The notes under the pieces: generated by a model
The model's input: the letters and a program-made list of their open reading frames with translations, nothing else
Told to the model about the DNA's origin: nothing
The model's database searches: none
In this document: positions 1 through 13,516 of the stretch, piece by piece
Position numbering within the stretch: the stretch's first letter is position 1
Layout: the number at the start of each line of letters is the position of its first letter
Translations under genes and position numbers: made by a program
From: Candidatus Zixiibacteriota bacterium
GTDB taxonomy: Bacteria; SM23-81
Direction: 5' to 3'
DNA length: 13,516 bases
Assembly (NCBI GenBank): GCA_030628225.1
Contig: DAOVRJ010000039.1
Location: 1 to 13,516 of the forward strand

Positions 1-945
1 CAGTCGGTGCTGGCCACCATCTATGAGGTCCAGTTCACCACCGATCCAGGGGCCGACAGCACCTATCCCTCTCCCATGGACAGCATACTGGTGACGGTCA
101 CCGGCGTGGTCACAGAGGACCACTCCCACTCCAGCAGCCATTTTCATATCCAGGACGACACGGACCCCCAGGGCACCGGAGGAGCCTGGAACGGCATCTA
201 CGTTTACGACGGCGGAGACTATAGCCCGGCCATGGGGGACAAGGTCCAGATAACCGGGGAAATCCAGGAGTACTATGGCAAAACGGAGATCGGCAACCTG
301 GCCGCATACACCCTGATCAGCTCCGGCAATAACCTGCCCGGCCCGGTGGAGCTCCAGACCGGGGACATCCAGTTCGATTCCAATGTGAGCGAGCCATACG
401 AGGGTGTCTACATCATCCTCCGGGACGTCACCGTCTCCGATCCGGCACCGGATGGCTTTGGCAACTGGCACGTCAGCAACGGATCCGGCACGGCGCAGGT
501 GGACGCCAGCGGCGACTACAGCTACGAGCCGCAGCTAAACGACCACATCGAGTATATACAGGGCGTCATCGACTACAGCTACGATCAATACGAGATCGAG
601 ATCGGCAACGACGATGACATCGGCCCGGTGACCACCGACGTTGAGCAAACGCTTGGTGAGATACCGGTGGACTATGCCCTCTCCCAGAACTATCCCAATC
701 CCTTTAATCCCATCACCCGGTTCACGTACACCGTGCCCCAGCAAAGCCCGGTGAAGATCGAGATCTTCAACATCATGGGCCAGAGGGTGCGGGTTCTGGT
801 GGACGAGAAGGTGGCGGCCGGCAGTCATGTGGTCACCTGGAATGGCCAAAGCGACGCCCGGATGGAAACGGCCAGCGGAATCTACTTCTGCCGGTTTCAA
901 GCAGGCGACTTCTGCCAGATCCGTAAGCTGGTGCTCTTGAAGTAG
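1..945 (+). CDS. Secreted OB-fold protein with T9SS C-terminal sorting domain (5' end missing)
   Basis: The frame is open from the first base, so this is the C-terminal 314 residues of a longer protein; the GTG at 7 is probably internal. Residues about 6-105 and 115-205 look like two successive OB-fold-type beta domains (patterns such as VTVTGVVTED, GDKVQITGEI, then YIILRDVTVSD, DHIEYIQGVI), of the kind that accompanies secreted nucleases and peptidases. Residues about 223-314 are a classic type A T9SS sorting domain, with NYPNPFNP, a central IEIFNIMGQRVR strand, VTWNG, SGIYF and the terminal KLVLLK. Known for the family: this domain directs export across the outer membrane and is usually cleaved. 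Any catalytic domain must lie upstream of the window, so the function is unknown. The next gene starts 6 bases after the stop, suggesting co-transcription. The fold assignment is inference; the sorting domain is clear. Confidence 0.88.
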   Translation, partial: QSVLATIYEVQFTTDPGADSTYPSPMDSILVTVTGVVTEDHSHSSSHFHIQDDTDPQGTGGAWNGIYVYDGGDYSPAMGDKVQITGEIQEYYGKTEIGNLAAYTLISSGNNLPGPVELQTGDIQFDSNVSEPYEGVYIILRDVTVSDPAPDGFGNWHVSNGSGTAQVDASGDYSYEPQLNDHIEYIQGVIDYSYDQYEIEIGNDDDIGPVTTDVEQTLGEIPVDYALSQNYPNPFNPITRFTYTVPQQSPVKIEIFNIMGQRVRVLVDEKVAAGSHVVTWNGQSDARMETASGIYFCRFQAGDFCQIRKLVLLK

Positions 946-951
946 GAATTG

Positions 952-3135
952 ATGCGCTATTTGAAATTTGCTGCAGGCCATTTGATCCCGGAAGCTCTGG
1001 GGCTGCTTCTGCTCATCGCTCTGTTTATCCCCGGCCCGGCCAGAGGAGAACTCTCCTATGTGAGCAGCACTCTCTGGTCCGATGTGCGGGCGGTGACCGT
1101 TCGAGAAGATACGCTCTTCTGCATCTTCTCCAACGGACTGGTCCTTCTGGAGCTCATCCCCGGAGAGTACCCGGCGCTTATCGGTCAGCTGTACCTGGAA
1201 GGAAACGGGCACGATCTGTGCCTGGAGGGTGAGTACATCTACGTGGCCGATGGCCAGGGCGGGCTTCAGATCGCCCGGCTGGGCGAGTCCAGGGGTCCCG
1301 TATGGGTGGGACAATATGATGTTCCGGGAATGGTATACGGCGTTGCCGTCCGGGAGAGCCTGGCCTATTTGGCCGCCGGGGAGAGTGGCTTGATCATCGT
1401 GGACGTCCGGGATCCATCTCATCCCCAGCTGGTGAGCTCATACGCCACAACAGAGCCCGCCCAGATGGTTCTGGTGCGGGACTCTCTGGCCTTTGTGGCC
1501 ACGGGATATGGCGGGGTGGAAATCGTGAAGGTGACTGACCCCCACCTGCCAATCCCGCTGGGCAGCTACAGTTTTCCGGGAAGGGTTTTCGTCCAGGACC
1601 TCGACCTCCATGATTCTCTCCTATACATGGCCGCCAGCACCTACGGTCTGCGAATCCTGGAGGTCTCAAACCCTGCGGCACCATGGGAGAGAGGCAGCTA
1701 CGACAGCCCGGGAGACGCCGAGGGGATCGCGGTCAGGGGAACGCTAGCCTATTTGGCCAACGGCTTCGGGGGCTTTGAGATCATCGATGTGGCCAATCCG
1801 GAGGAGCCGGAGTTTCTCGGCTCATACGATACTCCGGATTGGGCCTACGACATCTGGGTTGGAGATTCCTCGGCTTACTTGGCCGACGGGTTCGGAGGAC
1901 TAAAGATCTTCCATGTGGCCGACTCGACTCACCCTCAGTTGGCGAACGTTTACCGGACCACGGATCAAGTCCACGGCGTCCAGGTACGAGGGGCTTATGC
2001 CTATGTGGCCAGCGGTGACAAAGGACTTCAGGTCGTGGACGTGAGCGAGCCAACCATCCCAACCCTGGTGGGAGAGCTCGACACAGAGGGTTTCGCCATG
2101 TCCTTATGGGTGGAGAACCATTACGTCTATTTGGTTAGTGAGACGGGAGGGTTGCAGATCTTCGACGTCCAAGATCCAACCGAACCGGATCTAGTGGGGT
2201 CACACCACACACCTCACTACAGCTGGGGGGTAGTGGTGAGGGACACCCTGGCCTATGTGGCCGACGGTAACAGCGGTCTGCAGATCATCAATGTGGCCGA
2301 TCCCGGCAACCCCCAGTATGTGGGTTCCTACAACACTCCGGGCTTCGCCGCCAACATAGCTCTGGATAGCTCTTACGCCTACGTGGCCGACAAGGATGGC
2401 GGACTCCATATCCTCGGGGTTGGTGACCCCTTTTCTCCCGGGTTCGTGAGCTCGTACCAGGATTTGGTGTCAGCCTGGGACGTGGAAATCAGCTGGCCCT
2501 ATGCATACGTGGCCAACCAACGGGCCGGCCTGTTGATCCTGAACATCTCCGATCCCGCCGATCCCCAGTTTGTGGCCTCACTTGACACGCCGGGATTGGC
2601 TAAAAACGTCTTTCTGGAAGACCATTATGCCTTCGTGGCCGATGGGGACTCCGGGGTGGTCGTCGTGGACGTTCAGAACCCTGCTCAGCCAATAGCCGCC
2701 AGCGCATATTATACACCTTCGCACGCCTTCGCTCTGAATGTTTCCGATGGGATGATGTATGTGGCCGATAGGGCCTCATTATTGATTCTGAGCTTTCAGC
2801 CCACGGTCGTGGAGGACCAAGGTCCGAAGACTCCGTTTCCCCAGGACTTCTATCTTTATCAGAATTGTCCCAATCCCTTCAACGACGTGACCAGCATCCT
2901 GTTTAGCGTCGACGGGCATGAGCAGGAAAGAGAGCTTCCCGTTTCCCTGAAAATCTACAACATTCGGGGACAATTGGTCAGAACCCTGCTGGAAACAAGA
3001 GTGGGGCCGGGAGTACATCAGGCCAGCTGGGATGGGAAAGATGCCCTGGGGCGGACGGCGGAAAGCGGAATTTACCTCTGCGTCCTTCAAGCTGGCTCGC
3101 GGCAAAACTGCAAAAAGGTAGTTTTATTGCGTTAG
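952..3135 (+). CDS. Secreted LVIVD-repeat beta-propeller protein with T9SS sorting domain
   Basis: The start is taken at ATG 952, with GTAGGA just upstream overlapping the previous stop; a TTG at 949 is also in frame. Product 727 aa. Residues 1-32 form a signal peptide ending near PARG|ELS. Residues about 48-617 are tandem units of about 42 aa with the pattern V-R-x-x-x-A-Y-V-A-x-G-x-x-G-L-x-I-(I/V)-D-V-x-(D/N)-P-x-x-P-x-x-V-G-S-Y-x-T-P, the LVIVD repeat of bacterial and archaeal surface proteins, predicted to form beta-propeller blades. I count 13 complete units (the first degenerate) plus a half unit at the end. The last 110 residues are a T9SS sorting domain (NCPNPFN, LKIYNIRGQLVR, ASWDGKD, SGIYLCVLQAG, KKVVLLR). 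No catalytic motif is visible, so a binding or scaffold role on the cell surface is inferred. The gene sits between another sorting-domain protein and a lipoprotein gene in the same tight run. Confidence 0.93.
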   Translation: MRYLKFAAGHLIPEALGLLLLIALFIPGPARGELSYVSSTLWSDVRAVTVREDTLFCIFSNGLVLLELIPGEYPALIGQLYLEGNGHDLCLEGEYIYVADGQGGLQIARLGESRGPVWVGQYDVPGMVYGVAVRESLAYLAAGESGLIIVDVRDPSHPQLVSSYATTEPAQMVLVRDSLAFVATGYGGVEIVKVTDPHLPIPLGSYSFPGRVFVQDLDLHDSLLYMAASTYGLRILEVSNPAAPWERGSYDSPGDAEGIAVRGTLAYLANGFGGFEIIDVANPEEPEFLGSYDTPDWAYDIWVGDSSAYLADGFGGLKIFHVADSTHPQLANVYRTTDQVHGVQVRGAYAYVASGDKGLQVVDVSEPTIPTLVGELDTEGFAMSLWVENHYVYLVSETGGLQIFDVQDPTEPDLVGSHHTPHYSWGVVVRDTLAYVADGNSGLQIINVADPGNPQYVGSYNTPGFAANIALDSSYAYVADKDGGLHILGVGDPFSPGFVSSYQDLVSAWDVEISWPYAYVANQRAGLLILNISDPADPQFVASLDTPGLAKNVFLEDHYAFVADGDSGVVVVDVQNPAQPIAASAYYTPSHAFALNVSDGMMYVADRASLLILSFQPTVVEDQGPKTPFPQDFYLYQNCPNPFNDVTSILFSVDGHEQERELPVSLKIYNIRGQLVRTLLETRVGPGVHQASWDGKDALGRTAESGIYLCVLQAGSRQNCKKVVLLR
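1093..2802 (+). repeat. Coding tandem array of about 126-base LVIVD units
   Basis: The array encodes 13 complete units plus a final half unit. Unit length is 42 residues throughout, except an early unit of about 41 and one of 44. The DNA still shows the periodicity: versions of gcctatgtggccgac recur about every 126 bases (for example near 2251, 2377 and 2629). Individual units differ at many positions, so this is an old array rather than a fresh expansion. Confidence 0.85.
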
Positions 3136-3162
3136 ATGTAACCTGCCCTTCAACCTCCCTAT

Positions 3163-3169
3163 GGGAGAG
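3163..3169 (+). promoter_or_regulatory. Ribosome binding site selecting ATG 3176
   Basis: GGGAGAG lies 6-8 bases before ATG 3176 and downstream of the in-frame ATG at 3161. It therefore favours the shorter product, whose signal peptide starts MCRKIK with a basic n-region. Confidence 0.6.
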
Positions 3170-3175
3170 CACGAG

Positions 3176-4606
3176 ATGTGCCGAAAGATAAAAATCGCCG
3201 TTACCATCGCAGCGGGCTGGGCTCTTTTGGTCGGTTTGCTTATGGCCTGTTCCAAAGATATGCCCTCCCAACCTCACGGAAACCTGAGGCCCCAGACCCA
3301 TCTCTCCATCATCCTGTCCGAGGAAATGGAGACGCCGGACACCACCGTGAGCAGACAGGTGCTTCACTGGTGGGGCGACGATCCCGATGGCCAGGTGATG
3401 GGCTTTTACTGGGCCTGGGACGACACCAGCTGCGACACATGCTGGACCTGGACCGTGGCCAATAGCGACACCTTTCAGCTGAAAATTCTCAGCCAGTTCG
3501 ACTCGTTCACATTTTACGTCAAAGCGGTGGATAACACCGCCGTCTTCAACGCGTTTCCCTCAGACAGCACCCCGCCCGTTGATATCGCCGGAGCCGTCGA
3601 TCTCACGCCGGCCGTCATGACCTTCCCCATCGCCAACTCGGCACCGGAAATCAGGTTTCCCGCCGAGCTGATCCTGAACTACGCCAGGAACGACTATGTC
3701 TCCTTTCACATCGCCTCCTTCAACTGGGAGGGAAGCGATCCCGACGGAGATGACACCATCGTCAAATATATGTATGCCCTGGATGACACCTCTACCTGGC
3801 AGGAAATCGTCGGATCGCCACCACCCCCCTACATCACCCTGGAGAACATCCCCGCTGGCCAGCATCGCTTTTTCGTGAAAGCACAAGATGTGGCCGGAGC
3901 CACCAGCCCGACCATCGCCTACCCCGACTCGCAGGGCACCTGGACGGTGCAGGAGAAAAAAGGAGATGTTCTGTATATCGACAACAACAAGTGGGCCGAA
4001 TGGTTCAACGACGCCCGCAACTTTTACACCGGGGAGCTGGATCGCCTGTTCGGGCCTGATGGATATTCGATGTGGATCTTAGAAGAGAGCTACCAAATCC
4101 CCTTCTCCAAGCTGGACATCACCAGGACTCTGCAGCTGTTCGACAAGGTCATCTGGAACGCCGACCGGGACTCCTATCTGAAGAAGGCTTCCAGCAGCCT
4201 CTCCAGCTATATCCTGGATGGCCATGTGGTCATCATCACCACCGATCTGGGAGAGGGCGACTGGGATAACCCCCCCTTCACCTTCGCCCACATCGACAGC
4301 ATCACAAATGAGGTGGACGAGATCGATATTGGGGATGAGCTAGAACCTCTGCTGACCGGATATCCCCGGCTTAAAGCTCACCGCTATATCTCCCACACCA
4401 CCGAGGTGGGTTTCGGCTTTGTCCCCGACGAGGAGGCCGAGCCTCTGTACATCCTGCTTCACGAGCCCAATCCGGTGGTGGGATTGCGATATCCCGCCGG
4501 CGGCCCAGCTTCCCTGATCTTCCTGGATTTTCAGCTCCACTGGGCGAACGCGCTGGGGACGGCCGGTGATCTATTGGAATACATCCTCACCGTGGAGTTC
4601 GAGTAA
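3176..4606 (+). CDS. Lipoprotein with two Ig/FN3-like domains and an alpha/beta (GATase-like?) C-terminal half
   Basis: Product 476 aa from ATG 3176. A hydrophobic signal ends in the lipobox LMAC with Cys25, so the protein is probably an outer-membrane-anchored lipoprotein. Residues about 43-130 and 155-258 look like two beta-sandwich modules. Each has a W-x-G-x-DPDG core (DPDG near residues 69-72 and 188-191), then a WAWDDT or YALDDT strand and a (F/H)xFxVKAxD strand, as in FN3/Ig-like domains of FCB surface proteins. Residues about 263-476 look like an alternating alpha/beta domain: strand DVLYIDNN, a helix, FDKVIWNAD, helix plus DGHVVIITTD, and a late SLIFLDFQLHW strand. The layout resembles class I glutamine-amidotransferase-like or flavodoxin-like folds, but I see no GATase Cys-His-Glu triad, so a binding role is likelier than catalysis. 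It lies 31 bases before the TonB receptor, in the position a SusD-like partner often takes, but shows no SusD-like helical repeats. No specific family is recognised. Confidence 0.88.
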   Translation: MCRKIKIAVTIAAGWALLVGLLMACSKDMPSQPHGNLRPQTHLSIILSEEMETPDTTVSRQVLHWWGDDPDGQVMGFYWAWDDTSCDTCWTWTVANSDTFQLKILSQFDSFTFYVKAVDNTAVFNAFPSDSTPPVDIAGAVDLTPAVMTFPIANSAPEIRFPAELILNYARNDYVSFHIASFNWEGSDPDGDDTIVKYMYALDDTSTWQEIVGSPPPPYITLENIPAGQHRFFVKAQDVAGATSPTIAYPDSQGTWTVQEKKGDVLYIDNNKWAEWFNDARNFYTGELDRLFGPDGYSMWILEESYQIPFSKLDITRTLQLFDKVIWNADRDSYLKKASSSLSSYILDGHVVIITTDLGEGDWDNPPFTFAHIDSITNEVDEIDIGDELEPLLTGYPRLKAHRYISHTTEVGFGFVPDEEAEPLYILLHEPNPVVGLRYPAGGPASLIFLDFQLHWANALGTAGDLLEYILTVEFE

Positions 4607-4626
4607 TGATAACATCCATAACGCTT

Positions 4627-4632
4627 GGGGAG
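4627..4632 (+). promoter_or_regulatory. Ribosome binding site selecting ATG 4638
   Basis: GGGGAG with a 5-base spacer to ATG 4638 fixes the start of the receptor gene. The frame is open back to a GTG at 4566 inside the preceding gene, but that extension would put 24 non-signal residues in front of the signal peptide. Confidence 0.75.
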
Positions 4633-4637
4633 CGCGA

Positions 4638-7379
4638 ATGAACAGCTCCCTCACATCCGCTGATCCGAGCGCCATACGCCGATCTCTGCTGCTATTAGGT
4701 CTATGCCTGCTGACTTTTTGGGTTTCGGTTCGCCCCGCAGGGGCCAAGGAGACGGGCAGCGTGTCGGGCACGGTGATCGATGCCCAGACGAAAGAGCCGC
4801 TTCCCGGGGTAAACATCGTGGTCAAAGGAACCTATCTGGGCGCGGCCACCGATATGGGCGGCCGTTATTTTATCCCTCAGATACCTGCCGGAGACTTCGT
4901 CTTCCAGGTCTCCATGATCGGCTACACCATCCAGCAAAAAACGGGCATCAAGGTCCTGGCCGGCCAGACCAACATCGTCGACTTCACCCTGGAACCGACC
5001 ACCCTGGCCCTGGGACAGGAGATCACCGTCATCGGCGAAAAACCCCTCATGGAATTGGACATCACCTCCTCCTCCCGGAACATCTCCGCGGCTGAAATCC
5101 AGGCAGCCATGGTGGAGGACGTAAGCGAGGTGGTCGGTCAGCAGCTTGGTGTTGTGGATGAGGAGGGCGCCCTGCATATCCGCGGAGGGCGTTCCCACGA
5201 AAGCCTGTTCATGGTCGACGGGGTGGCCATCCGCGATCCCCTCTCGGGCAACGCCTATGGCCTCCACATCAGTGCCGACGCCGTGGCTGAGATCGAGGTG
5301 ATCACCGGGGGGTTCAACGCCGAATACGGCCAGGCCATGTCCGGGGTGGTGCAGATCAAGACCCGGGAGGGCGGCTCTCACTATCACGGCAGCGCCACCA
5401 TGAAGAGCGATCACATCCTGGGTCTGGACTACTACAATACCGATATCCTGGAATTAAACCTGCGCGGGCCGGAGCCCATCCTGTCCTGGCTCTTGCCCGG
5501 TGATGTGAGCTTCATGTTGAACGGATACAGCTACTTCTCCGACAGCTACTTACCCCATGCCAACCGTCTTTATTCCTCACAGTATGGCGGAACCCGTTTT
5601 TGCCCCCGGGAGGAAAACGACTGGTCCGGCCTGGCCAAGCTAACCTGGAAGATCAAGCCCACCCATAAGCTGTCCGCCTCCTACAACCGTTCTCTGAAGA
5701 TCAACCAGGGGTATTTCTCGGAGTACGGGGGATTCCCTTACCGCTACAGCAAACACCTGGATAACTTCAACACCTACACTCAGGAGGCCATCGGGCTCAG
5801 CGTGAACTGGTCCCACACCACCAGCCCCACCACCTTCTACGAGTTGATCCTCAGCCGCTTCTTCAGCCACCTCCATTACGATGTGGCCGGAAAACACTGG
5901 TCTGAATATATCATGACCGACGATCAGGAACCGGTGGTAACAGATACAAGCGGTCAGGTGCAAGTGGGTGATGGTTTTTACGATTGGGGAGATTCCCCTT
6001 ACTGGCACGACCACTACGTGGAGACTTACACCATCAAGGGAGATCTGACCAGCCAGATCTCTCAGCGACACCAGATCAAGGCCGGCCTGGAGTTGAGCAC
6101 TACCCAGATGCAGTTAGTGGACATCTACAAACCCTGGCTGGGCCAGACAAGTCTGGGCCTCAACCACGACCTCTACCACGTTTATCCCAACAGCGGGTCC
6201 TTTTACATCCAGGACAAAATCGTCTACGAGGGCATGATCGTTAACCTGGGCCTGAGATACGATTACTGGTTCCCGGGTGAGTTCGTGGAACAGGCCATCA
6301 ATGACCCGGAGACGGTGACCATCAGCGATGCCGCCCGGCAGAAATTCTATGATGAGACCTTCGAGATCTTCGGTCACCGGGGAAAGGGGCACCTGAGCCC
6401 CCGCCTGGGCATTTCCCACCCCATCTCCGACAACGACATGCTCTTTCTCTCCTACGGCCATTTTTCCCAGCTGCCCAAATATCAATACATCTACGCCAAA
6501 CTCAAGTCTCGCTCCATGAGCACCTATCAGCTCTTCGGCAACCCCAACCTTAACTCCACGGTCACCGTGGCCTACGAGATGGGCATCAAGCACAAGTTCA
6601 GCGAAAAGCAGATGATCAGCCTGACCGCCTTTTACAAAGATATTTTCGATTATCCTACCTCCTTGCAGGTTGAGGCGAATAATCCTCGCCTGGGAGATAT
6701 CTATTACCTGATGTACTTCAACATGGACTTCGCCCGCTCCCGGGGGGTGGAGATCGAGCTGAAGAGGCGACAGAGCCATTACCTCTCCGGAACGGCCAAT
6801 TTCTCTTACTCAATGGCCACCGGTAAAAGCTCCACCCCGGACGACGCCCTGCTGGTGGCCGCCGGGAGACTTCGGGAGAAGACCTTGAAGGAGGACTTCC
6901 TGAATTGGGATAAACCCATCCTCTTCTCCCTCAACATCACCTTTCGCATCGGGGAACACGAACACCCCCGCCTCTTCGGGCTCAAGCTGCCCGACAATTG
7001 GTCCGTCAACCTGCGCTATTCGGGACAGTCGGGAAAGCGATACCGTCCCGTGGAACGCAAACATGACGCCAACAACCAGCCCTATGACGATTACGGCGAG
7101 CGAAACGCCAACGTGGGCCAGCACTGGGCGTGGCTGGACTTGAAGATCGAGAAGGACCTCCACTGGAGATCCCTGTGGACCACATTCTTCCTGGAAGGAA
7201 AGAACGTGCTGGACAACAAAAACGCGCGCTACATCAACCCCCTCACCGGCAGGGCCTGGGAGCAGGGAGATCCCATCCCCATCAGCTGGGCCAACGATCC
7301 CAATGATCTGCCACCCTGGAACCCGGCGCGCTACAAAGAGCCCAGAAGCTGGCGAGCTGGCATGTCCGTCAGCTGGTAG
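4638..7379 (+). CDS. TonB-dependent outer-membrane receptor with carboxypeptidase-regulatory-like N-terminal domain
   Basis: Product 913 aa. The signal peptide has RR followed by a leucine-rich core and probable cleavage after AGA at residue 36. Residues about 40-120 are a CarboxypepD_reg-like beta domain (GSVSGTVIDAQTKEPLPGVN, GTYLGAATDMGGRYFIPQIPAG), typical of FCB receptors. A short TonB-box-like stretch, EITVIGE, follows near residue 128. The plug spans about 145-245, with HIRGGRSHES, LFMVDGVAIRD and the end motif GGFNAEYGQAMSGVVQIKTREG. The rest is a beta-barrel rich in alternating aromatic strands, ending in an aromatic residue (SVSW). The family imports ligands across the outer membrane using TonB-ExbBD energy; the substrate cannot be read from the sequence. 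The stop overlaps the ribosome binding site of the next gene (TAGGAG), implying translational coupling with the PorV-like barrel. The preceding lipoprotein gene is the obvious candidate partner. Confidence 0.95.
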   Translation: MNSSLTSADPSAIRRSLLLLGLCLLTFWVSVRPAGAKETGSVSGTVIDAQTKEPLPGVNIVVKGTYLGAATDMGGRYFIPQIPAGDFVFQVSMIGYTIQQKTGIKVLAGQTNIVDFTLEPTTLALGQEITVIGEKPLMELDITSSSRNISAAEIQAAMVEDVSEVVGQQLGVVDEEGALHIRGGRSHESLFMVDGVAIRDPLSGNAYGLHISADAVAEIEVITGGFNAEYGQAMSGVVQIKTREGGSHYHGSATMKSDHILGLDYYNTDILELNLRGPEPILSWLLPGDVSFMLNGYSYFSDSYLPHANRLYSSQYGGTRFCPREENDWSGLAKLTWKIKPTHKLSASYNRSLKINQGYFSEYGGFPYRYSKHLDNFNTYTQEAIGLSVNWSHTTSPTTFYELILSRFFSHLHYDVAGKHWSEYIMTDDQEPVVTDTSGQVQVGDGFYDWGDSPYWHDHYVETYTIKGDLTSQISQRHQIKAGLELSTTQMQLVDIYKPWLGQTSLGLNHDLYHVYPNSGSFYIQDKIVYEGMIVNLGLRYDYWFPGEFVEQAINDPETVTISDAARQKFYDETFEIFGHRGKGHLSPRLGISHPISDNDMLFLSYGHFSQLPKYQYIYAKLKSRSMSTYQLFGNPNLNSTVTVAYEMGIKHKFSEKQMISLTAFYKDIFDYPTSLQVEANNPRLGDIYYLMYFNMDFARSRGVEIELKRRQSHYLSGTANFSYSMATGKSSTPDDALLVAAGRLREKTLKEDFLNWDKPILFSLNITFRIGEHEHPRLFGLKLPDNWSVNLRYSGQSGKRYRPVERKHDANNQPYDDYGERNANVGQHWAWLDLKIEKDLHWRSLWTTFFLEGKNVLDNKNARYINPLTGRAWEQGDPIPISWANDPNDLPPWNPARYKEPRSWRAGMSVSW

Positions 7380-7388
7380 GAGCCGTCG

Positions 7389-8387
7389 ATGAAGAAGATC
7401 ACCGCCATCACCATCATGCTGTCTATCCTGTGGTGGGTTGATACTGCCCTCTGTTGGCAGCCCTTCGCCAATATGGGCGGCCAGCGAGCCGGTACCTCTT
7501 CGGCCCAGTTCCTGAAGATCGGCGTGGGGGCCAGAGCCGCCGCCCTGGGCGATGCATTCGTGGCCATTGCCGACGATGCCTCGGCCCTCTATTGGAATCC
7601 AGCCGGCCTGGGTTTTCTGCAGGGAACACATGTGCACTTTACTCATATCCAGTGGCCGGCGGAGATCGAATACGAGTTCATTGGTCTGACCAAGAAGGTG
7701 GCCCGGATCGGAATTATAGGACTCAGCTTCGCCTCCCTGCATATGGACGATATGGAGGTGACCACCGAGTTCCGGCCCCATGGCACTGGTGAGTACTTTT
7801 CTTATGGCGACTTCCTGGGGGCGGTGACATATGCCCGCCAATTGACGGACCGGTTTTCCTTCGGCATCAACCTCAAATACATCCAGGAAAATCTGGCCGA
7901 ACTGACCTCTCAGGGCTGGGTGGTAGATATGGGTACTTACTACCGAACCGGCTTCCGCAGCCTGCGCATCGCCGCTAACCTGGCCAACTTTGGTCCCAAT
8001 ATCCGGCCGGATGGCTCATATCTGGGAATCAATGAATATGGCCAGCCGGCCACCAGGCGCTATGAGGGCTTCGCACCTCCCACCGTATTTCGCCTGGGAA
8101 CGGCCATGGAGATCCTGGAAAGTGATGGGCAGAGGCTGACCCTCTGCCTGGCCATGAACCACCCCGTGGACAACGCCGAGAACGCCTCTTTGGGCTTAGA
8201 GTACCAGTTTTTGAAGGCCATATCCGCCCGCCTGGGATATAAGTTCAACTACGACGAGGAGAGGGTCACCGTGGGAGCTGGATGGCAGCTGCCCCTGTGG
8301 TCATCACAGATGAAAATCGATTATGCTTACACCGATTTCGGACTGCTGGATTGCGCCCACCGGATATCCTTCGACTTCTGGTTCTGA
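7389..8387 (+). CDS. PorV/PorQ-family outer-membrane beta-barrel protein
   Basis: Product 332 aa with signal peptide MKKITAITIM... through about residue 22. The family signature is at residues 39-75: SAQFLKIGVGARAAALGDAF, then a stretch reading VAIADDASALYWNPAGLG. This is the N-terminal hallmark of PorV/PorQ (UPF0164, FadL-like barrels). The rest consists of alternating barrel strands (IGIIGLSFASLHMDDM, FSFGINLKYIQENLAE, LRIAANLANFG, ISARLGYKFNYDEERVTVGAG) ending in the aromatic DFWF. AGGAG at 7378-7382, overlapping the receptor stop, gives a 6-base spacer to ATG 7389. In characterised T9SS, PorV binds the C-terminal sorting domain of cargo and delivers it to PorU. Many FCB genomes encode several paralogs, so this need not be the core PorV. 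Its place downstream of two sorting-domain proteins in the same run supports a link to their export or display; that link is inference. Confidence 0.92.
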   Translation: MKKITAITIMLSILWWVDTALCWQPFANMGGQRAGTSSAQFLKIGVGARAAALGDAFVAIADDASALYWNPAGLGFLQGTHVHFTHIQWPAEIEYEFIGLTKKVARIGIIGLSFASLHMDDMEVTTEFRPHGTGEYFSYGDFLGAVTYARQLTDRFSFGINLKYIQENLAELTSQGWVVDMGTYYRTGFRSLRIAANLANFGPNIRPDGSYLGINEYGQPATRRYEGFAPPTVFRLGTAMEILESDGQRLTLCLAMNHPVDNAENASLGLEYQFLKAISARLGYKFNYDEERVTVGAGWQLPLWSSQMKIDYAYTDFGLLDCAHRISFDFWF

Positions 8388-8389
8388 TG

Positions 8390-8394
8390 AGGAG
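8390..8394 (+). promoter_or_regulatory. Ribosome binding site selecting ATG 8405
   Basis: AGGAG with a 10-base spacer to ATG 8405 decides between two in-frame starts. ATG 8387, which overlaps the previous TGA, has no such site upstream and would add only MRRCDR. Confidence 0.55.
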
Positions 8395-8404
8395 ATGTGA
8401 CCGG

Positions 8405-9370
8405 ATGAAAATTACCCTGGGATTATCCTCCCTGGGACTGGCTATTTTGTTGGCCATGGCCGGATGCGGAAAGAAGATGGGCCTCCCCAGCGAATCACCG
8501 CTGAGCAAATGGGGCGCCGGGGACACCACCTACGTGCGCATCAATCCCCCCTGGGACCGCAACCATCCGTACAGACATAATTTTCAAGATCCCCGAGACG
8601 TCATCGTGGGGCGGGATGGCCACATCTGGGTGGCCGACAGCCTGTTCATCTGGAAGCTGGATCGAGCCGGCCAGATCTTGAACAGGTACCTGGTCCCTGG
8701 GCTGCAAGATATAAAGGCCATCGCTCAGAGCCCCACCGGCCAGATCTATGCCGTCCGGGGCGACTCCATCGTCTACCTTCTAGACGGCACCTTCTTTCTG
8801 ACCCACCGCAAGGCACGCTATACGGGCGTGGCCGTTGACGATGAAAACTGGATCTACTTAGCTGATTCCGGCCGGCAGATGTTGTTGAAATTCTCCGCCG
8901 ATGATCCCTCTCAATCAGACACGCTGGCCACCTATGGTACCGGAGGCGGAACCGTGGATCTGCCCAGGGGGATCACCACCGACATCTCCCTGAATGTCTA
9001 TTTCGTTCAGGAGGGCGGGAGCTTTCACGTCCAGAAGATGAGGCCTTCGGCCACCGGGTACCTGCCCGATGTCTACTTTGGCCTGCAGGGAGACTCCCTG
9101 AAGCAGTTCATGGCCCCGCAAGATGTGGCCGTGGACGCCGACGGCTACATCTACGTGGCCGACACGGGGAACCACCGCATTCAGAAGTTCAGCCCCTATG
9201 GAGGTCTGAAGATCGCCTTCGGGGACAGCGGCTCCGCCGGAGAGCAATTCATCTTTCCAGAGGGCATCGCCGTGGACGAGAATCTGATCCTGTACATCGC
9301 CGACACCGGCAATGACCGCGTGGAGCGCTACCAGCTTTCCACTGAAATTGACATCCCCGAAGAGCCCTGA
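8405..9370 (+). CDS. NHL-repeat (six-bladed beta-propeller) lipoprotein
   Basis: Product 321 aa. A hydrophobic signal ends in MAGC, putting the lipidated Cys at residue 21. Six propeller units can be placed at about residues 65-90, 102-128, 140-165, 188-212, 239-264 and 287-310. The clearest are DVAVDADGYIYVADTGNHRI followed by QKFSPYG, and GIAVDENLILYIADTGNDRV followed by ERYQ, textbook NHL motifs; the second and fourth units are more diverged. Six NHL repeats build one closed six-bladed propeller, so the protein is essentially a lipid anchor, a roughly 40-residue tether and one propeller. NHL propellers usually bind proteins, peptides or carbohydrates, and no catalytic residues are evident. 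It is the last gene of the envelope cluster, 17 bases after the PorV-like gene, and is probably an accessory surface or periplasmic component of that barrel or of the receptor. Confidence 0.92.
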   Translation: MKITLGLSSLGLAILLAMAGCGKKMGLPSESPLSKWGAGDTTYVRINPPWDRNHPYRHNFQDPRDVIVGRDGHIWVADSLFIWKLDRAGQILNRYLVPGLQDIKAIAQSPTGQIYAVRGDSIVYLLDGTFFLTHRKARYTGVAVDDENWIYLADSGRQMLLKFSADDPSQSDTLATYGTGGGTVDLPRGITTDISLNVYFVQEGGSFHVQKMRPSATGYLPDVYFGLQGDSLKQFMAPQDVAVDADGYIYVADTGNHRIQKFSPYGGLKIAFGDSGSAGEQFIFPEGIAVDENLILYIADTGNDRVERYQLSTEIDIPEEP

Positions 9371-9424: not shown

Positions 9425-10675
9425 ATGGCGTCAGCTTTATGTCTATTTGAGGACACTGATTATCGAAAACTTCTGCCTCTGGTGTACACCCGTCCGGTCT
9501 ACGACCTGCGCTGTGGAACCTGTACCCTGGGGGAAAAGATCATCCGCCAATATTCCGGGGCCACCGTTATTGCGCACTGTCGTGGGGAGCTGGTTAGTGC
9601 AATTAAAAATGTCTATCACGGACTTTTGGTAAATGAGCTGCCCCATGATTCTTGCCTGTTGATCAACGGCCGACTGCTGGCGGATAAAAACCTCCCGGAA
9701 AAGATTCCCCTGCAGGGTGAGGACTGCCTGTTCATCTCTGGAGAAACCTTAGTGGCAGCCCGGGTGAGCGGAAAAAATTTAGAGCGACTACGGCAGAAGT
9801 TAGGATCCGGCCCCATCACCATCGACCTCTTCTCCGTCGACCGAACCCAGGAGGTGGAGGTTCAGCTCATCAGCTACCCTTGGAATCTTGTCAACCACAA
9901 TAGCTCTCAGATCGAGGCGGACTGGGAGGTTTTCGGCTTAGGGGGACGGATCAAGGGTCATGTCTACGACGGTGCCACTTTACTGAACCGGGAGAAAATC
10001 TTTCTGGCCCAGGGAACCAAGCTCAAGCCGGGAGCAGTATTGGATGCTGAAGGGGGACCTATAATTATTGAGCCGGGAGCCACCATCTTTCCCAATGCCA
10101 CCATCGAGGGCCCGGCCTTCATCGGAGCCAGGACCCTGATCAAGACGGGGGCCAAGATCCATGAGGGAACCAGCATCGGCGAGGTGTGCAAGGTGGGCGG
10201 AGAGGTGGAGGAAAGCATCATCCACAGTTACAGCAACAAACAGCACGAAGGTTTTTTGGGTCACTCCTACTTAGGAATGTGGGTCAACCTTGGCGCCGGC
10301 ACCAACAACAGCGACCTGAAGAACAATTATAGCAACGTGAAGGCTTACGTGGACGGTGAGATGGTGGACAGCGGCTCCATGTTCGTCGGCTTGACCATGA
10401 GTGACCACTCCAAGTCAGGCATCAACACCATGTTCAACACGGGCACCGTGGTAGGGGTCAGCTGTAACGTCTACGGCGGCGGGTTTCCCCCCAAGCTCGT
10501 TCCCTCCTTCACCTGGGGCGGAGCCGAGGGACTGGTGGAGTATCGGCTGGACAAGGCCCTGGAGATGGCCCGGGCGGTGATGGGCCGGTGCAAGCTGGAG
10601 CTGACTCCGGCCCACGAAGAACTGATCAGGGCGATCTTTCGGGAGACGGCCCCGGAGCGGGCCAAGTTGAAGTGA
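9425..10675 (+). CDS. GlmU-like bifunctional sugar nucleotidyltransferase / left-handed beta-helix acyltransferase
   Basis: Product 416 aa. The N-terminal half (about 1-190) has the pattern of the FCB-type GlmU nucleotidyltransferase domain: LCLFEDTDYRKLLPLVYTRPVYDLRCG near the start, then a LLINGRLLAD strand and the LVNHNSSQIEADWE segment. It lacks the LxAGxGTRM loop of classical GlmU. Residues about 190-380 are hexapeptide repeats of a left-handed beta-helix (LKPGAVLDAEGGPIIIEPGA, TIEGPAFIGARTLIKTGAKI). They contain the signature block NKQHEGFLGHSYLGMWVNLG followed by AGTNNSDLKNNYSNV. This matches the alternative bacterial GlmU family, predicted to make UDP-N-acetylglucosamine through glucosamine-1-phosphate acetylation and uridylylation for peptidoglycan and lipid A. 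The exact sugar is inferred and a related sugar-nucleotide product is possible. GGAG at 9411-9414 lies 10 bases before the ATG. The 54-base gap from the previous gene is larger than others in the cluster, so it may be transcribed separately. Confidence 0.92.
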   Translation: MASALCLFEDTDYRKLLPLVYTRPVYDLRCGTCTLGEKIIRQYSGATVIAHCRGELVSAIKNVYHGLLVNELPHDSCLLINGRLLADKNLPEKIPLQGEDCLFISGETLVAARVSGKNLERLRQKLGSGPITIDLFSVDRTQEVEVQLISYPWNLVNHNSSQIEADWEVFGLGGRIKGHVYDGATLLNREKIFLAQGTKLKPGAVLDAEGGPIIIEPGATIFPNATIEGPAFIGARTLIKTGAKIHEGTSIGEVCKVGGEVEESIIHSYSNKQHEGFLGHSYLGMWVNLGAGTNNSDLKNNYSNVKAYVDGEMVDSGSMFVGLTMSDHSKSGINTMFNTGTVVGVSCNVYGGGFPPKLVPSFTWGGAEGLVEYRLDKALEMARAVMGRCKLELTPAHEELIRAIFRETAPERAKLK

Positions 10676-11043
10676 GTTGTGGAGAGAACGAATACCGCGG
10701 CTTAACAAAATTTGTGTACATTGAGCTTTCTTGAAGATGGGTAAATGCATCGCTGAGATAACAAACCCGATAAAAACATGAAACTATCACCATAGATGAA
10801 AAAGGCTTTTAATCTCGAAGGTAGCGGAGTCGAAACCAGATCTCAGGAGAAATTTCATCTTCGTCTACGGGGGGCGCTAGGTGCCCTGAAGAGAAGGTTA
10901 TTCAGCGGTCAGAGAGTTTAGTCTCGACAAGATCTCGAATTTTTCCTTGACTCACCTGATCAGATATACGATGTTGAAATTGGGTTCCAAAGAGAGCTCG
11001 TTGTGATACACACACTCTCTGAGAATTCTATTCATTTTGGCAT
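10676..11043 (+). other. Intergenic region without a recognisable gene
   Basis: These 368 bases hold no credible ORF, tRNA or strong intrinsic terminator. They are visibly AT-richer than the upstream genes. The only structures seen are a short GC hairpin at 10872-10886 and the octamer atctcgaa in two copies (near 10814 and 10932). A -35-like TTGACT at 10947-10952 has no matching -10 at 16-18 bases. The region separates the GlmU-like gene from the downstream pair and probably contains that pair's promoter, which I cannot locate. Confidence 0.6.
10872..10886. repeat. Short GC-rich inverted repeat
   Basis: GGGCGC-TAG-GTGCCC can fold into a 6-bp stem (one G-U pair) with a 3-base loop, preceded by extra G residues. 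No T-run follows on either strand, so it is not a standard intrinsic terminator. It may be chance or a remnant structure. Confidence 0.35.
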
Positions 11044-11964
11044 ATGGTGATACGAACAATGAAGATGAGACGAATATTAGAATCTATCACAATATCAGGG
11101 CTGATGGTTCTTTCTCTAAGCTGTGGCTTGGAGAATCCTGAGGGGCCGAATTATTTTTTAGACCCCCCGGCACCAGTTCCTCGGGATCTTCGTCCTTCCT
11201 GGTCGCCTGATGGGAAGACCATCGCCTACTATCACTACGAACCATTCGACCCAGACTATCCTTCCGGCGTCTATTTCATAGATGTCGATGGGACCAACAA
11301 GCGCCAGTTCCTACCAAAGCCAGCCTATGGCGCCGATTGGTCACCAGATGGCCAGAAGCTCGTCCTTCAATACAGCATGGACATCTACACCATAAATATC
11401 GATGGCACAGAGCTGACTCGACTCACCTTCGACGGCCGAAGCTATGACCCCACCTGGTCACCAGATGGCACCAAGATCGCCTATAGTAATGGAGAAGGAA
11501 CTACATTATGGGTGATGAACACTGACGGTTCTGCCAAGAGGACCTTTCTCCAACGGAATGAACATGGGTTCCCCACGGCATGGGCACCGGATTGGTCTCC
11601 GGATAGCAAAAAGCTCGTTTGTACTATGAGGAACGACTCCCATGACCCCGGGGAGATATATACCGTCTATCTTGACGGAACTCATCTTAATCGTCTAACT
11701 CGCAATGATTATTTTGACCGATCCCCCGCTTGGTCACCAAACAGAAGAAAGATCGCGTATACCTGGTCGAAGGGAAGTGGTAATTATGGAATAAATATAA
11801 TGGACCTAGTCAGGAAAAAGGCGCGTTTACTCACCAAGGGAGGCAGCTCCTGTTGGTCTCCGGATGGAACGAAGATCGTCTATTGTAAGCCCAGCGAAGA
11901 AGGCACCCGATTGTGGATCGTCAATGCTGATGGGACTGGAGATCATCAACTCACCTTTGAGTGA
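11044..11964 (+). CDS. TolB/PD40-type beta-propeller protein, probable lipoprotein
   Basis: Product 306 aa from ATG 11044; in-frame ATGs at 11059 and 11065 are alternatives, and none has a clear ribosome binding site. The N-terminus (KMRRILESITISGLMVLSLSC) is a signal sequence. Cys27 would be lipidated, but the lipobox (SLSC) departs from consensus at -3, so anchoring is moderately certain. The body carries six WSPDG-type PD40 motifs at about residues 53, 99, 138, 184, 230 and 271; the fourth is WSPDS and the fifth WSPNR. Blades alternate with IDVDGTN, INIDGTEL and VNADGTGDHQLTF strands, as in TolB and periplasmic WD40-like proteins. Six motifs fit one six-bladed propeller. TolB itself has an extra N-terminal domain that is absent here, so this is not a true TolB. 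The protease gene starts 23 bases downstream, suggesting a two-gene operon and perhaps a functional partnership. Confidence 0.9.
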   Translation: MVIRTMKMRRILESITISGLMVLSLSCGLENPEGPNYFLDPPAPVPRDLRPSWSPDGKTIAYYHYEPFDPDYPSGVYFIDVDGTNKRQFLPKPAYGADWSPDGQKLVLQYSMDIYTINIDGTELTRLTFDGRSYDPTWSPDGTKIAYSNGEGTTLWVMNTDGSAKRTFLQRNEHGFPTAWAPDWSPDSKKLVCTMRNDSHDPGEIYTVYLDGTHLNRLTRNDYFDRSPAWSPNRRKIAYTWSKGSGNYGINIMDLVRKKARLLTKGGSSCWSPDGTKIVYCKPSEEGTRLWIVNADGTGDHQLTFE

Positions 11965-11972
11965 TAAACCTG

Positions 11973-11979
11973 AAGGAGG
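11973..11979 (+). promoter_or_regulatory. Strong ribosome binding site selecting ATG 11988
   Basis: AAGGAGG with an 8-base spacer to ATG 11988 is near-perfect. It overrules the in-frame GTG at 11961, which would overlap the previous stop and add nine charged residues before the signal peptide. Confidence 0.85.
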
Positions 11980-11987
11980 AAGATAAA

Positions 11988-13415
11988 ATGCGGTCCCGAT
12001 TTGTTACCTCTGTGATAATACTTACTTTGCTTGTTTTTGTATGTATTGATGTTTGGGCTCAGGAAGAATACGCCCCTGGCGAGATAGTAACCATGTTTGA
12101 TACTCCTGTTTTGGAATTACCTCCAGGTTCCGAGTTGGCAAACATAGAGCAAGTGACGATTCACACAGCTTCTTTAAGGGACTTCGTCGATCTCTTCAGC
12201 GTAGAGACGGCAGAGAAAGTATTCAAGGGCTCTATTCCCAACGACACTCTTAAGGTATCCCGTACGGGAGATTTGGTTAGAGTAGCTGACCTTTCCAGGG
12301 TCTATAAATTCAAGCTTCCGGTCACAGTCGATATTCCCTTTGCTTGCTCGAAACTACAAGAGCTGCCAGAGGTCATCTATGCCGAGCCCAATTATTTGCG
12401 TCATGCCTGTATTGTTCCCAATGACTCCCTTTTCGAGGATCAGTGGGGGCTTTATCAAGCCAATGATGTAGATATTGATGCCCCCGAGGCTTGGGAGCTT
12501 TCTACTGGCAGCGAGTCCCACCTTCTGGCCATCCTTGATACCGGCATAGACTATAATCATGACGATCTTGGACACGCCTTTGGATCATACCCTAACTCCA
12601 AAATCGTTGGGGGATATGACTTTGTCAACAATGATAACAATCCTATGGATGATAATCTGGATCCTCCCTATCACTCTCATGGCACTTCGGTGGCTGGGGT
12701 GGCTGCTGCTCTGACTAACAATTACAACGAACCTCCTGGTTTCCATGGAGGAGTGGCCGGTGTATCCGGGGGATGGCGAGGAGTTGCCTCGCCAAGTATA
12801 GGCTCACCCCTTTTGGCAGTCAAGGTACTTTGTGATACAGGAACGGGAACTATAACCGACGTTTCCGATGGGATACTCTGGGCAGTGGACAACGGAGCTT
12901 GGGTGATAAACATGAGCCTGGGTTGGTATGGATTTTCCTTCACTGAGTGCTTTGCCGTGACCGAAGCTTGGTGGCGAGGAACCATAATAGTGGCCTCTAT
13001 GGGTAACCATGGAAGGGGAGATTTCCATGCTCCTTCGGGCTATAGTCACGCCTGTATCTCTGTGGGTGCTGTTGATAAGGATGGTAACAGGATTACCGAC
13101 CCTCCCTATGAGTGGGAATCAAATTATGGTCCTTGGATAGATGTTATGGCTCCAGGCATCAACTGCTCGACCACAGCTCGCTTGAGTATGGGATCCTATC
13201 AATCCTTCAGCGGCACTTCTTGTTCTGCTCCCTTTGTGTCCGGCCTCTGTGGTCTCCTTCTCCAACACATGTCTGCTCCTACACCGGAGAAGTTAGAGGC
13301 CTTTGTGCGGGCATCTGGAAAGGACTATCCCTCTGGCTATTGGGATGAGTATAAGGGCTATGGTCTGATCAACGCCCGCCAGGGGTTGGATCTCTACCTA
13401 GATCCCCATGCATAG
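11988..13415 (+). CDS. Secreted subtilisin-like serine protease (S8 family) with N-terminal propeptide
   Basis: Product 475 aa. The signal peptide, with a hydrophobic core and VWA|Q, ends near residue 24. Residues about 25-150 form a propeptide region ending with the typical LPEVIYAEPNY strand. The catalytic domain follows QWGLYQANDVDIDAPEAWEL. All catalytic elements are present: Asp184 in AILDTGIDYNHDDL, His231 in HSHGTSVAGVAA, oxyanion Asn340 in VASMGNHG, and Ser411 in FSGTSCSAPFVSG. The enzyme should therefore be an active endopeptidase released or retained outside the inner membrane. The protein stops shortly after the last catalytic-domain helix (YGLINARQGLDLYL), with no T9SS sorting domain, FN3 module or lipobox, unlike the surface proteins upstream. 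A periplasmic location or another export route is therefore possible. The base composition is AT-richer than genes before 10.7 kb, most clearly in the signal-peptide region. It is paired with the PD40 propeller gene just upstream. Confidence 0.95.
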   Translation: MRSRFVTSVIILTLLVFVCIDVWAQEEYAPGEIVTMFDTPVLELPPGSELANIEQVTIHTASLRDFVDLFSVETAEKVFKGSIPNDTLKVSRTGDLVRVADLSRVYKFKLPVTVDIPFACSKLQELPEVIYAEPNYLRHACIVPNDSLFEDQWGLYQANDVDIDAPEAWELSTGSESHLLAILDTGIDYNHDDLGHAFGSYPNSKIVGGYDFVNNDNNPMDDNLDPPYHSHGTSVAGVAAALTNNYNEPPGFHGGVAGVSGGWRGVASPSIGSPLLAVKVLCDTGTGTITDVSDGILWAVDNGAWVINMSLGWYGFSFTECFAVTEAWWRGTIIVASMGNHGRGDFHAPSGYSHACISVGAVDKDGNRITDPPYEWESNYGPWIDVMAPGINCSTTARLSMGSYQSFSGTSCSAPFVSGLCGLLLQHMSAPTPEKLEAFVRASGKDYPSGYWDEYKGYGLINARQGLDLYLDPHA

Positions 13416-13423
13416 GGATACAA

Positions 13424-13446
13424 TCGAACCGCCTCCGGTGGTTCGA
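13424..13446. terminator. Hairpin after the protease gene, possible terminator
   Basis: A 10-bp stem (TCGAACCGCC / GGTGGTTCGA, one G-U pair) with a TCC loop begins 8 bases after the protease stop. Position and strength fit a transcription terminator or a 3'-end-stabilising structure. There is no clean T-run behind it, only gattttacg further on, so classic intrinsic termination is uncertain. Confidence 0.5.
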
Positions 13447-13455
13447 GCCAGGACG

Positions 13456-13516
13456 ATGATTTTACGTATTATTTTGGCACTGGGATTTGGTACAAGCGTT
13501 GGAAGGTCACCAAGTC
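13456..13516 (+). CDS. Possible start of another exported protein (3' end missing)
   Basis: An ATG at 13456 opens a frame that stays open to the window end, beginning MILRIILALGFGTSVGRSPS, which resembles a short signal peptide. The only purine-rich site, AGGA at 13450-13453, is just 2 bases from the ATG, too close for a normal ribosome binding site. With 20 codons visible this is a weak call; it may be non-coding sequence after the hairpin. Confidence 0.25.
   Translation, partial: MILRIILALGFGTSVGRSPS

Follow-up and report, generated by a model that had tools for sequence, protein, structure and literature searches.

A conserved outer-membrane cassette of FCB bacteria that sets a PorV-family barrel beside a TonB-dependent receptor

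A contig of a Candidatus Zixiibacteriota genome carries six adjacent genes on one strand (A-B-C-D-E-F, positions 1-9370), every product of which is exported. Among them are a barrel of the PorV/PorQ family and a TonB-dependent receptor. This raises the question whether the six genes encode one surface system and, if so, which cargo the barrel serves and in which direction the system works. The window, i.e. the whole stretch of DNA that was analysed (13,516 nucleotides), is the entire contig C199 of a MAG with 306 contigs and an estimated completeness of 92%; statements on the whole genome come from family searches.

Gene layout and the contig edge

The original prediction had described a compact run of six genes for exported proteins, and this was borne out by the open reading frames and the family matches. 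The intergenic gaps A-B, B-C, C-D, D-E and E-F are 3, 40, 31, 9 and 17 bp, a range of 3-40 bp instead of the 6-40 bp first given. The family matches also agree with the assignment of A and B as carriers of sorting domains, of D as TonB receptor, of E as PorV/PorQ barrel and of F as NHL lipoprotein (Table 1); the match of A to Por_Secre_tail has 39.7 bits.

Table 1 Genes of the cassette and their features, in coordinates of the window
Gene	Position	Strand	Product	Features
X	on contig C17, upstream of A		surface protein	PorZ-like sorting domain
A	1..945	+	T9SS cargo with ExeM/NucH-type OB-fold domains	type A sorting domain; CTD 691-933; open at the 5' contig edge
B	949..3135	+	protein with LVIVD repeats (beta-propeller type)	sorting tail 2869-3123; lineage-specific insertion
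C	3176..4606	+	lipoprotein	lipobox Cys 3248-3250; two Ig-like domains ~3278-3955; ThuA/GATase-like C-terminal domain ~3959-4603
D	4638..7379	+	TonB-dependent receptor	N-terminal CarboxypepD_reg; TonB-box-like motif 5016-5036; plug ~5058-5348
E	7389..8387	+	PorV/PorQ-family outer-membrane barrel	own group, not core PorV
F	8405..9370	+	NHL-repeat lipoprotein	lipid Cys 8465-8467

The left edge of the window is a contig end that cuts the operon. A profile of a further gene, X, built from relatives, matches contig C17 of the same genome with 713 bits. That contig (L165) holds X and the first part of A: on its other strand, X is followed by the start of A, which joins base 1 of the window without overlap, as judged by the full-length A of the nearest relative. 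The true operon in the window genome is X-A-B-C-D-E-F.

Downstream of F, and outside the unit, are genes for an alternative GlmU (9425-10675), a TolB-like PD40 lipoprotein and an S8 protease. The alternative GlmU gene (TIGR03991, 424 bits) starts 54 bp after F, and is close to F in SM23_81, too. From 10676 to 13516, across the genes for the PD40 lipoprotein and the S8 protease, which nearly touch each other (11044-13415), the G+C content drops from about 0.57 to 0.47-0.50.

The cassette in other genomes

C was searched first in 60 genomes, and hits were obtained in genomes of the same family and in three more distant ones. In these, E orthologues lie about 3 kb from C, and the full gene order was read there. 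A profile search of genome contigs with the alignment of D gave 80 named loci; the labels of the carriers rest on D. At the loci that could be tested, C is directly upstream of D in 76 of 76 and E downstream of D in 74 of 76, the two misses being a merged frame (L142) and a contig end (L127). An F orthologue is in place in 70 of 71, an A orthologue in 62 of 63 and X in 51 of 53 testable loci, and all six genes are visible in 52 of the loci retrieved by D. These counts of C, E, F, A and X around D exclude a chance grouping. The single miss of A is a locus with B inserted. B itself was found only in the window genome and its nearest relative, SM23_81 (L035/L085), and is ruled out as a member of the system, being a local insertion of this lineage; the conserved unit is X-A-C-D-E-F, with B outside of it.

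The records of the carriers are labeled Zixibacteria, KSB1, Neomarinimicrobiota, Ignavibacteria, Kryptonium, Calditrichaeota, Fermentibacteria and Bacteroidetes; the labels Opitutia, Parcubacteria and Deferribacteres on a few loci probably reflect misassigned MAGs. At several KSB1-type loci (L087, L090, L091, L234, L240) a gene for a second, distant TonB receptor follows F.

As the first loci had been chosen by D, a second retrieval was done with C. In the phylum of genome G048, C matches 49 of 82 genomes, and about half of all 82 at full length. Twenty of these loci retrieved by C were read, and A-C-D are found in this order at 20 of 20; X is upstream in all except L236 and E is present in all but L244, both at contig ends, and F is absent in L247 and L248. 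In a sample of 386 genomes over the domain, C is present in 36, all of which have a PorU match, vs 97 with PorU among all 386. The Fisher test for this association (p = 8e-25) is of descriptive value, since the genomes are not independent.

At eight loci, from six other families, the six gene families stand in a second order, D-E-F-X-C-A (A is out of reach in two of the eight, at contig ends). The block D-E-F is kept, and the block X-A-C stands behind it with A and C swapped. Nothing speaks more strongly for the set working as a unit than the fact that its genes are still together after such a rearrangement. The synteny on which the original prediction depended is therefore conserved, across phyla and in a second gene order, and a scattering of the neighbours in relatives is ruled out by the 80 loci retrieved by D, the 20 retrieved by C and the 8 reordered ones. 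We regard it as almost certain that X-A-C-D-E-F is a conserved single system. One clear exception was seen, L229 (G324:C15:45500-65000), with C and A and without X, D, E and F in reach.

A more modest reading is that the operon is merely co-regulated, its products being abundant surface proteins that share a niche; they would form no stable complex, and E would have no dedicated cargo. Indeed, the window genome is rich in such genes, with 22 PorV-family matches (about 20 genes) and 64 sorting tails. Against this, the six families stay together across deep divergence and after reordering, and E is one group apart from its paralogues. The core genes are closely coupled, with median gaps C-D, D-E and E-F of -1, 4 and 1 bp (starts estimated by script), and the members rarely occur apart: only L229 lacks the rest, and F is missing in L247 and L248. 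Mere co-regulation is thus quite unlikely. The genes X, A and C are spaced by median gaps of about 40 bp (X-A) and 80 bp (A-C).

Barrel E and its candidate cargo

E matches the PorV/PorQ family (NF033709) with 222.9 bits at a cut-off of 90, and 19 of 19 E orthologues scanned match this family. Of the specific models PorQ scores best, with 92.8 bits and below its cut-off of 220; the core PorV model NF033710 gives 77.9 bits, below the equivalog cut-off of 250, and E is also below the equivalog cut-off of PorV2. SprA and PorU are both encoded in the window genome. PorU is beside two PorV-family genes on contig C166, and a second PorU-like gene is beside another one on C43. A tree of 52 barrels places the E proteins of the cassettes in a single group (support 97/97), separate from the other copies of the genome; one unlabeled relative falls inside this group. 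A role of E as the general PorV of the genome is ruled out by the number of PorV-family matches, by the position of PorU beside other copies and by the separate group in the tree. The original prediction of a dedicated barrel turned on whether E is the sole PorV, which it is not.

Of the two loci with PorU-like genes (G000:C166:16528-21823 and G000:C43:141-3976), the second one is incomplete or diverged. About half of the PorV-family genes of the genome are directly beside a sorting-tail gene (rough binomial estimate 9e-7, from a hand count). On contig G000:C266 (L053:2426-8263), another PorV-family gene has two genes for OB-domain proteins similar to A in its vicinity, and one of these proteins has a clear type A tail; this is possibly a locus of A paralogues.

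Which protein, then, is served by E? A and B both have sorting tails and are encoded in the same gene run, and E could be a dedicated export shuttle for these two cargoes of the window. This is very improbable, since B is confined to this lineage, the tail of A is of type A, the class served by PorV (PMC12618676), and the conserved cargo is X, whose relatives adjoin PorV-family genes. The earlier proposal of a dedicated barrel with its own cargo is partly supported: neither of its refuting conditions came true, but its choice of cargo is right only in part, as B is not in the unit, A has a type A tail and X is the better candidate.

X has no Pfam match. Its tail is matched by the PorZ model in 28 of 41 orthologues and by the type A model in 2 of 41; the type B sorting model was unmatched, and the NCBIfam scan (E ≤ 0.01) gave the PorZ and type A models only. 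The model of X (mean pLDDT 81) has the super-beta-sandwich of GH116/GH94 enzymes (Z about 20) without the catalytic barrel, followed by an FnIII-like domain and the CTD. On each of the contigs C20, C227 and C59, a paralogue of X directly adjoins a PorV-family gene, and in two of the three cases a TonB receptor gene lies upstream. A smaller set, consisting of a TonB receptor, a T9SS protein like X and a barrel of the PorV family, was seen to recur on these three contigs of G000 (L042, L045, L046), and L220-L222 likewise have D, X and E in one run. The barrel PorQ is known to anchor PorZ at the surface (PMC5562754), and the CTDs of PorU and PorZ stay uncleaved (PMC11285876). The PorZ-like CTD of X is probably uncleaved, too. 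X, which is encoded outside the window, is likely the best candidate for cargo and partner of E.

Possible function and known systems

C has no match to a Pfam or NCBIfam family. Its AlphaFold model (pLDDT 86.6) shows two Ig-like domains and a ThuA-like domain, and the fold matches include HisH (Z 14.1), the ThuA-like protein 1t0b (Z 11.4) and the levan surface glycan-binding protein (SGBP) 8aa2_G (Z 10.0). The levan SGBP is composed of two Ig-like domains and a ThuA-like levan-binding domain and is docked on SusC (PMC7618045). The ThuA-like fold suggested by the model of C is a common one, with HisH scoring above the levan SGBP. A sequence similarity of C to the levan SGBP was not detected; a direct sequence link is therefore rejected, and the likeness is one of layout and fold only. 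A role of C as amidotransferase enzyme is unsupported; the lipid cysteine is the sole invariant cysteine across 60 orthologues, which makes such an activity unlikely. D has CarboxypepD_reg and plug domains, as indicated by family matches, and a TonB-box-like motif in all 80 aligned loci. With 78.2 bits it is below the cut-off of 368 of the SusC/RagA model. SusD was unmatched in the 92%-complete genome with PF07980, the sole SusD model tried, and none was seen in the block.

From the families identified and the order and conservation of their genes, from the predicted folds and lipid anchors, from the TonB-box-like motif and from the presence of the T9SS, all of them computed, we propose that X-A-C-D-E-F is a SusD-less, T9SS-coupled importer resembling a utilisome. 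This is a reading for which we see the chances as evenly balanced, and in which contacts, direction of transport and substrate are what we infer, as is a physical surface complex of the cassette proteins. In such an importer, SprA would send X and A out to the surface. E would receive X through its PorZ-like CTD and, in the manner of PorQ with PorZ, keep it at the membrane. A, with its type A tail, would be delivered via the general PorV/PorU route and could provide OB-fold binding domains. C would sit on D and capture a polymer, like the levan-binding lipoprotein on SusC, and D would take in the fragments with energy from TonB. F, the NHL propeller lipoprotein, may be a scaffold or a second binder beside E.

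The same parts could also work outward, with E, F, C and D as an assembly or attachment complex for surface proteins, similar to PorU-PorV-PorQ-PorZ or to BamG and the propeller dome of the Bacteroidota BAM; D would then be a scaffold or signaling receptor and not an importer. E belongs to the FadL/PorV/PorQ superfamily, as do PorQ and BamG, F is predicted to be a propeller lipoprotein and BamI has a six-bladed propeller (PMC12578637), the tail of X is PorZ-like, the link to genomes with PorU is strict and, unlike typical nutrient loci, the cassette is present in a single copy in the genome. However, the constant TonB-box-like motif of D in the 80 loci suggests energised transport, and C is laid out like a glycan-binding lipoprotein. 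In the loci inspected no BAM or core T9SS gene was recognised, and the absence of the cassette from about half of the genomes of a carrier phylum would be odd for core biogenesis. We therefore consider an outward-working complex unlikely.

What could be taken up by the proposed importer? A contains repeated OB-type domains that are shared with the N-terminal part of ExeM/NucH nucleases. Genes for T9SS-tailed PLD or EEP (endonuclease/exonuclease/phosphatase) proteins are beside 30 of the 80 cassettes retrieved by D. PLD genes are beside 21, either right after F or a short distance further downstream, and most of these loci are labeled Ignavibacteria; EEP genes are beside 10 of the 80 and beside 4 of the 20 loci retrieved by C. 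At one Marinimicrobia locus, A matches the N-terminal part of ExeM/NucH, and the protein encoded next to the cassette matches the catalytic part. Control contigs with other PorV-family genes (149 kb) had no such nuclease genes. The T9SS-tailed PLD-family proteins are NucT-like (L103, L115, L137 and 18 others), and EEP was seen in KSB1 and Marinimicrobia loci. Nuclease genes are absent beside the cassette in the lineage of the window and in all eight loci with the second order, which makes nucleic acid a lead and not a finding; it is a somewhat unlikely substrate. A glycan would be just as compatible with the sandwich fold modeled for X and with the layout of C. A search for riboswitches as a clue to the substrate gave none over the gathering cut-offs in 14 sources, and no further clue of this kind came up.

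A role of A as a cytochrome is rejected: a CxxCH motif is present in only 6 of 69 A proteins, all from loci labeled Marinimicrobia. These six (L138, L163, L096, L097, L098, L101) have one motif each, and in A of L138 Pfam finds an N-terminal cytochrome c domain ahead of the OB repeats.

The Bacteroidota have two hallmark surface machines, the T9SS and SusCD, which have been studied separately. In the cassette, parts of both types are joined in a single, strictly conserved operon, and this in phyla represented mostly by MAGs. It looks like a machine, so far undescribed, that connects a secretion barrel to an energised nutrient importer, with cargo and partners as predicted above. We found no description of such a cassette in the open-access papers that were searched. 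In a broader and more tentative view, which we hold to be possible but doubtful, it would represent an undescribed class of outer-membrane machines that couple the T9SS to TonB import and are widespread among FCB phyla beyond the Bacteroidia studied so far. A substrate-binding protein exported by the T9SS would be docked permanently, via a PorV-family barrel, on a TonB transporter that has no SusD. Each genome would use a minimal D-X-E module several times, and extracellular nucleic acid may be what the six-gene form handles. The cassette also bears on the question why such genomes contain roughly 20 PorV-family barrels, several of which adjoin their own cargo. The cassette offers a concrete set of families for study, with C and X having no Pfam or NCBIfam match of their own.

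The closest counterparts on the import side are the levan and dextran utilisomes of Bacteroides, made of SusC, SusD, a glycan-binding lipoprotein and a glycoside hydrolase lipoprotein (PMC7618045). They share with the cassette a TonB-dependent barrel and the encoding in one locus, and the levan utilisome also a surface lipoprotein in which two Ig-like domains precede a ThuA-like domain, as predicted for C (PMC7618045). However, SusD was not found in the genome and D is below the SusC/RagA cut-off, X and A exit by the T9SS, the cassette has a PorV-family barrel and an NHL lipoprotein in addition, and a glycoside hydrolase was not recognised in the conserved block. With the extracellular nucleases ExeM/NucH, A shares the N-terminal OB-type part, but it is without the catalytic nuclease domain.

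On the export side, type B CTD cargo and PorP/SprF shuttles (PMC12618676, PMC9143113) likewise have one specialised barrel per cargo, side by side; here, X has no type B tail match and E is of the PorV/PorQ family. The Bacteroidota BAM with BamG and BamI (PMC12578637, PMC12611786) also has a FadL-superfamily barrel and surface lipoproteins including a propeller. The cassette differs in having a TonB receptor as the partner barrel and T9SS cargo as two of its members, and a gene for BamA was not recognised within the block. PorQ-PorZ (PMC5562754, PMC11285876) has in common with E and X a PorV/PorQ-family barrel and a surface protein with a PorZ-like CTD, which in PorZ is uncleaved. The differences are that E scores under the cut-off for PorQ, that X has a super-beta-sandwich in place of propellers, and that the pair is tied to the operon of a TonB receptor and not to PorU.
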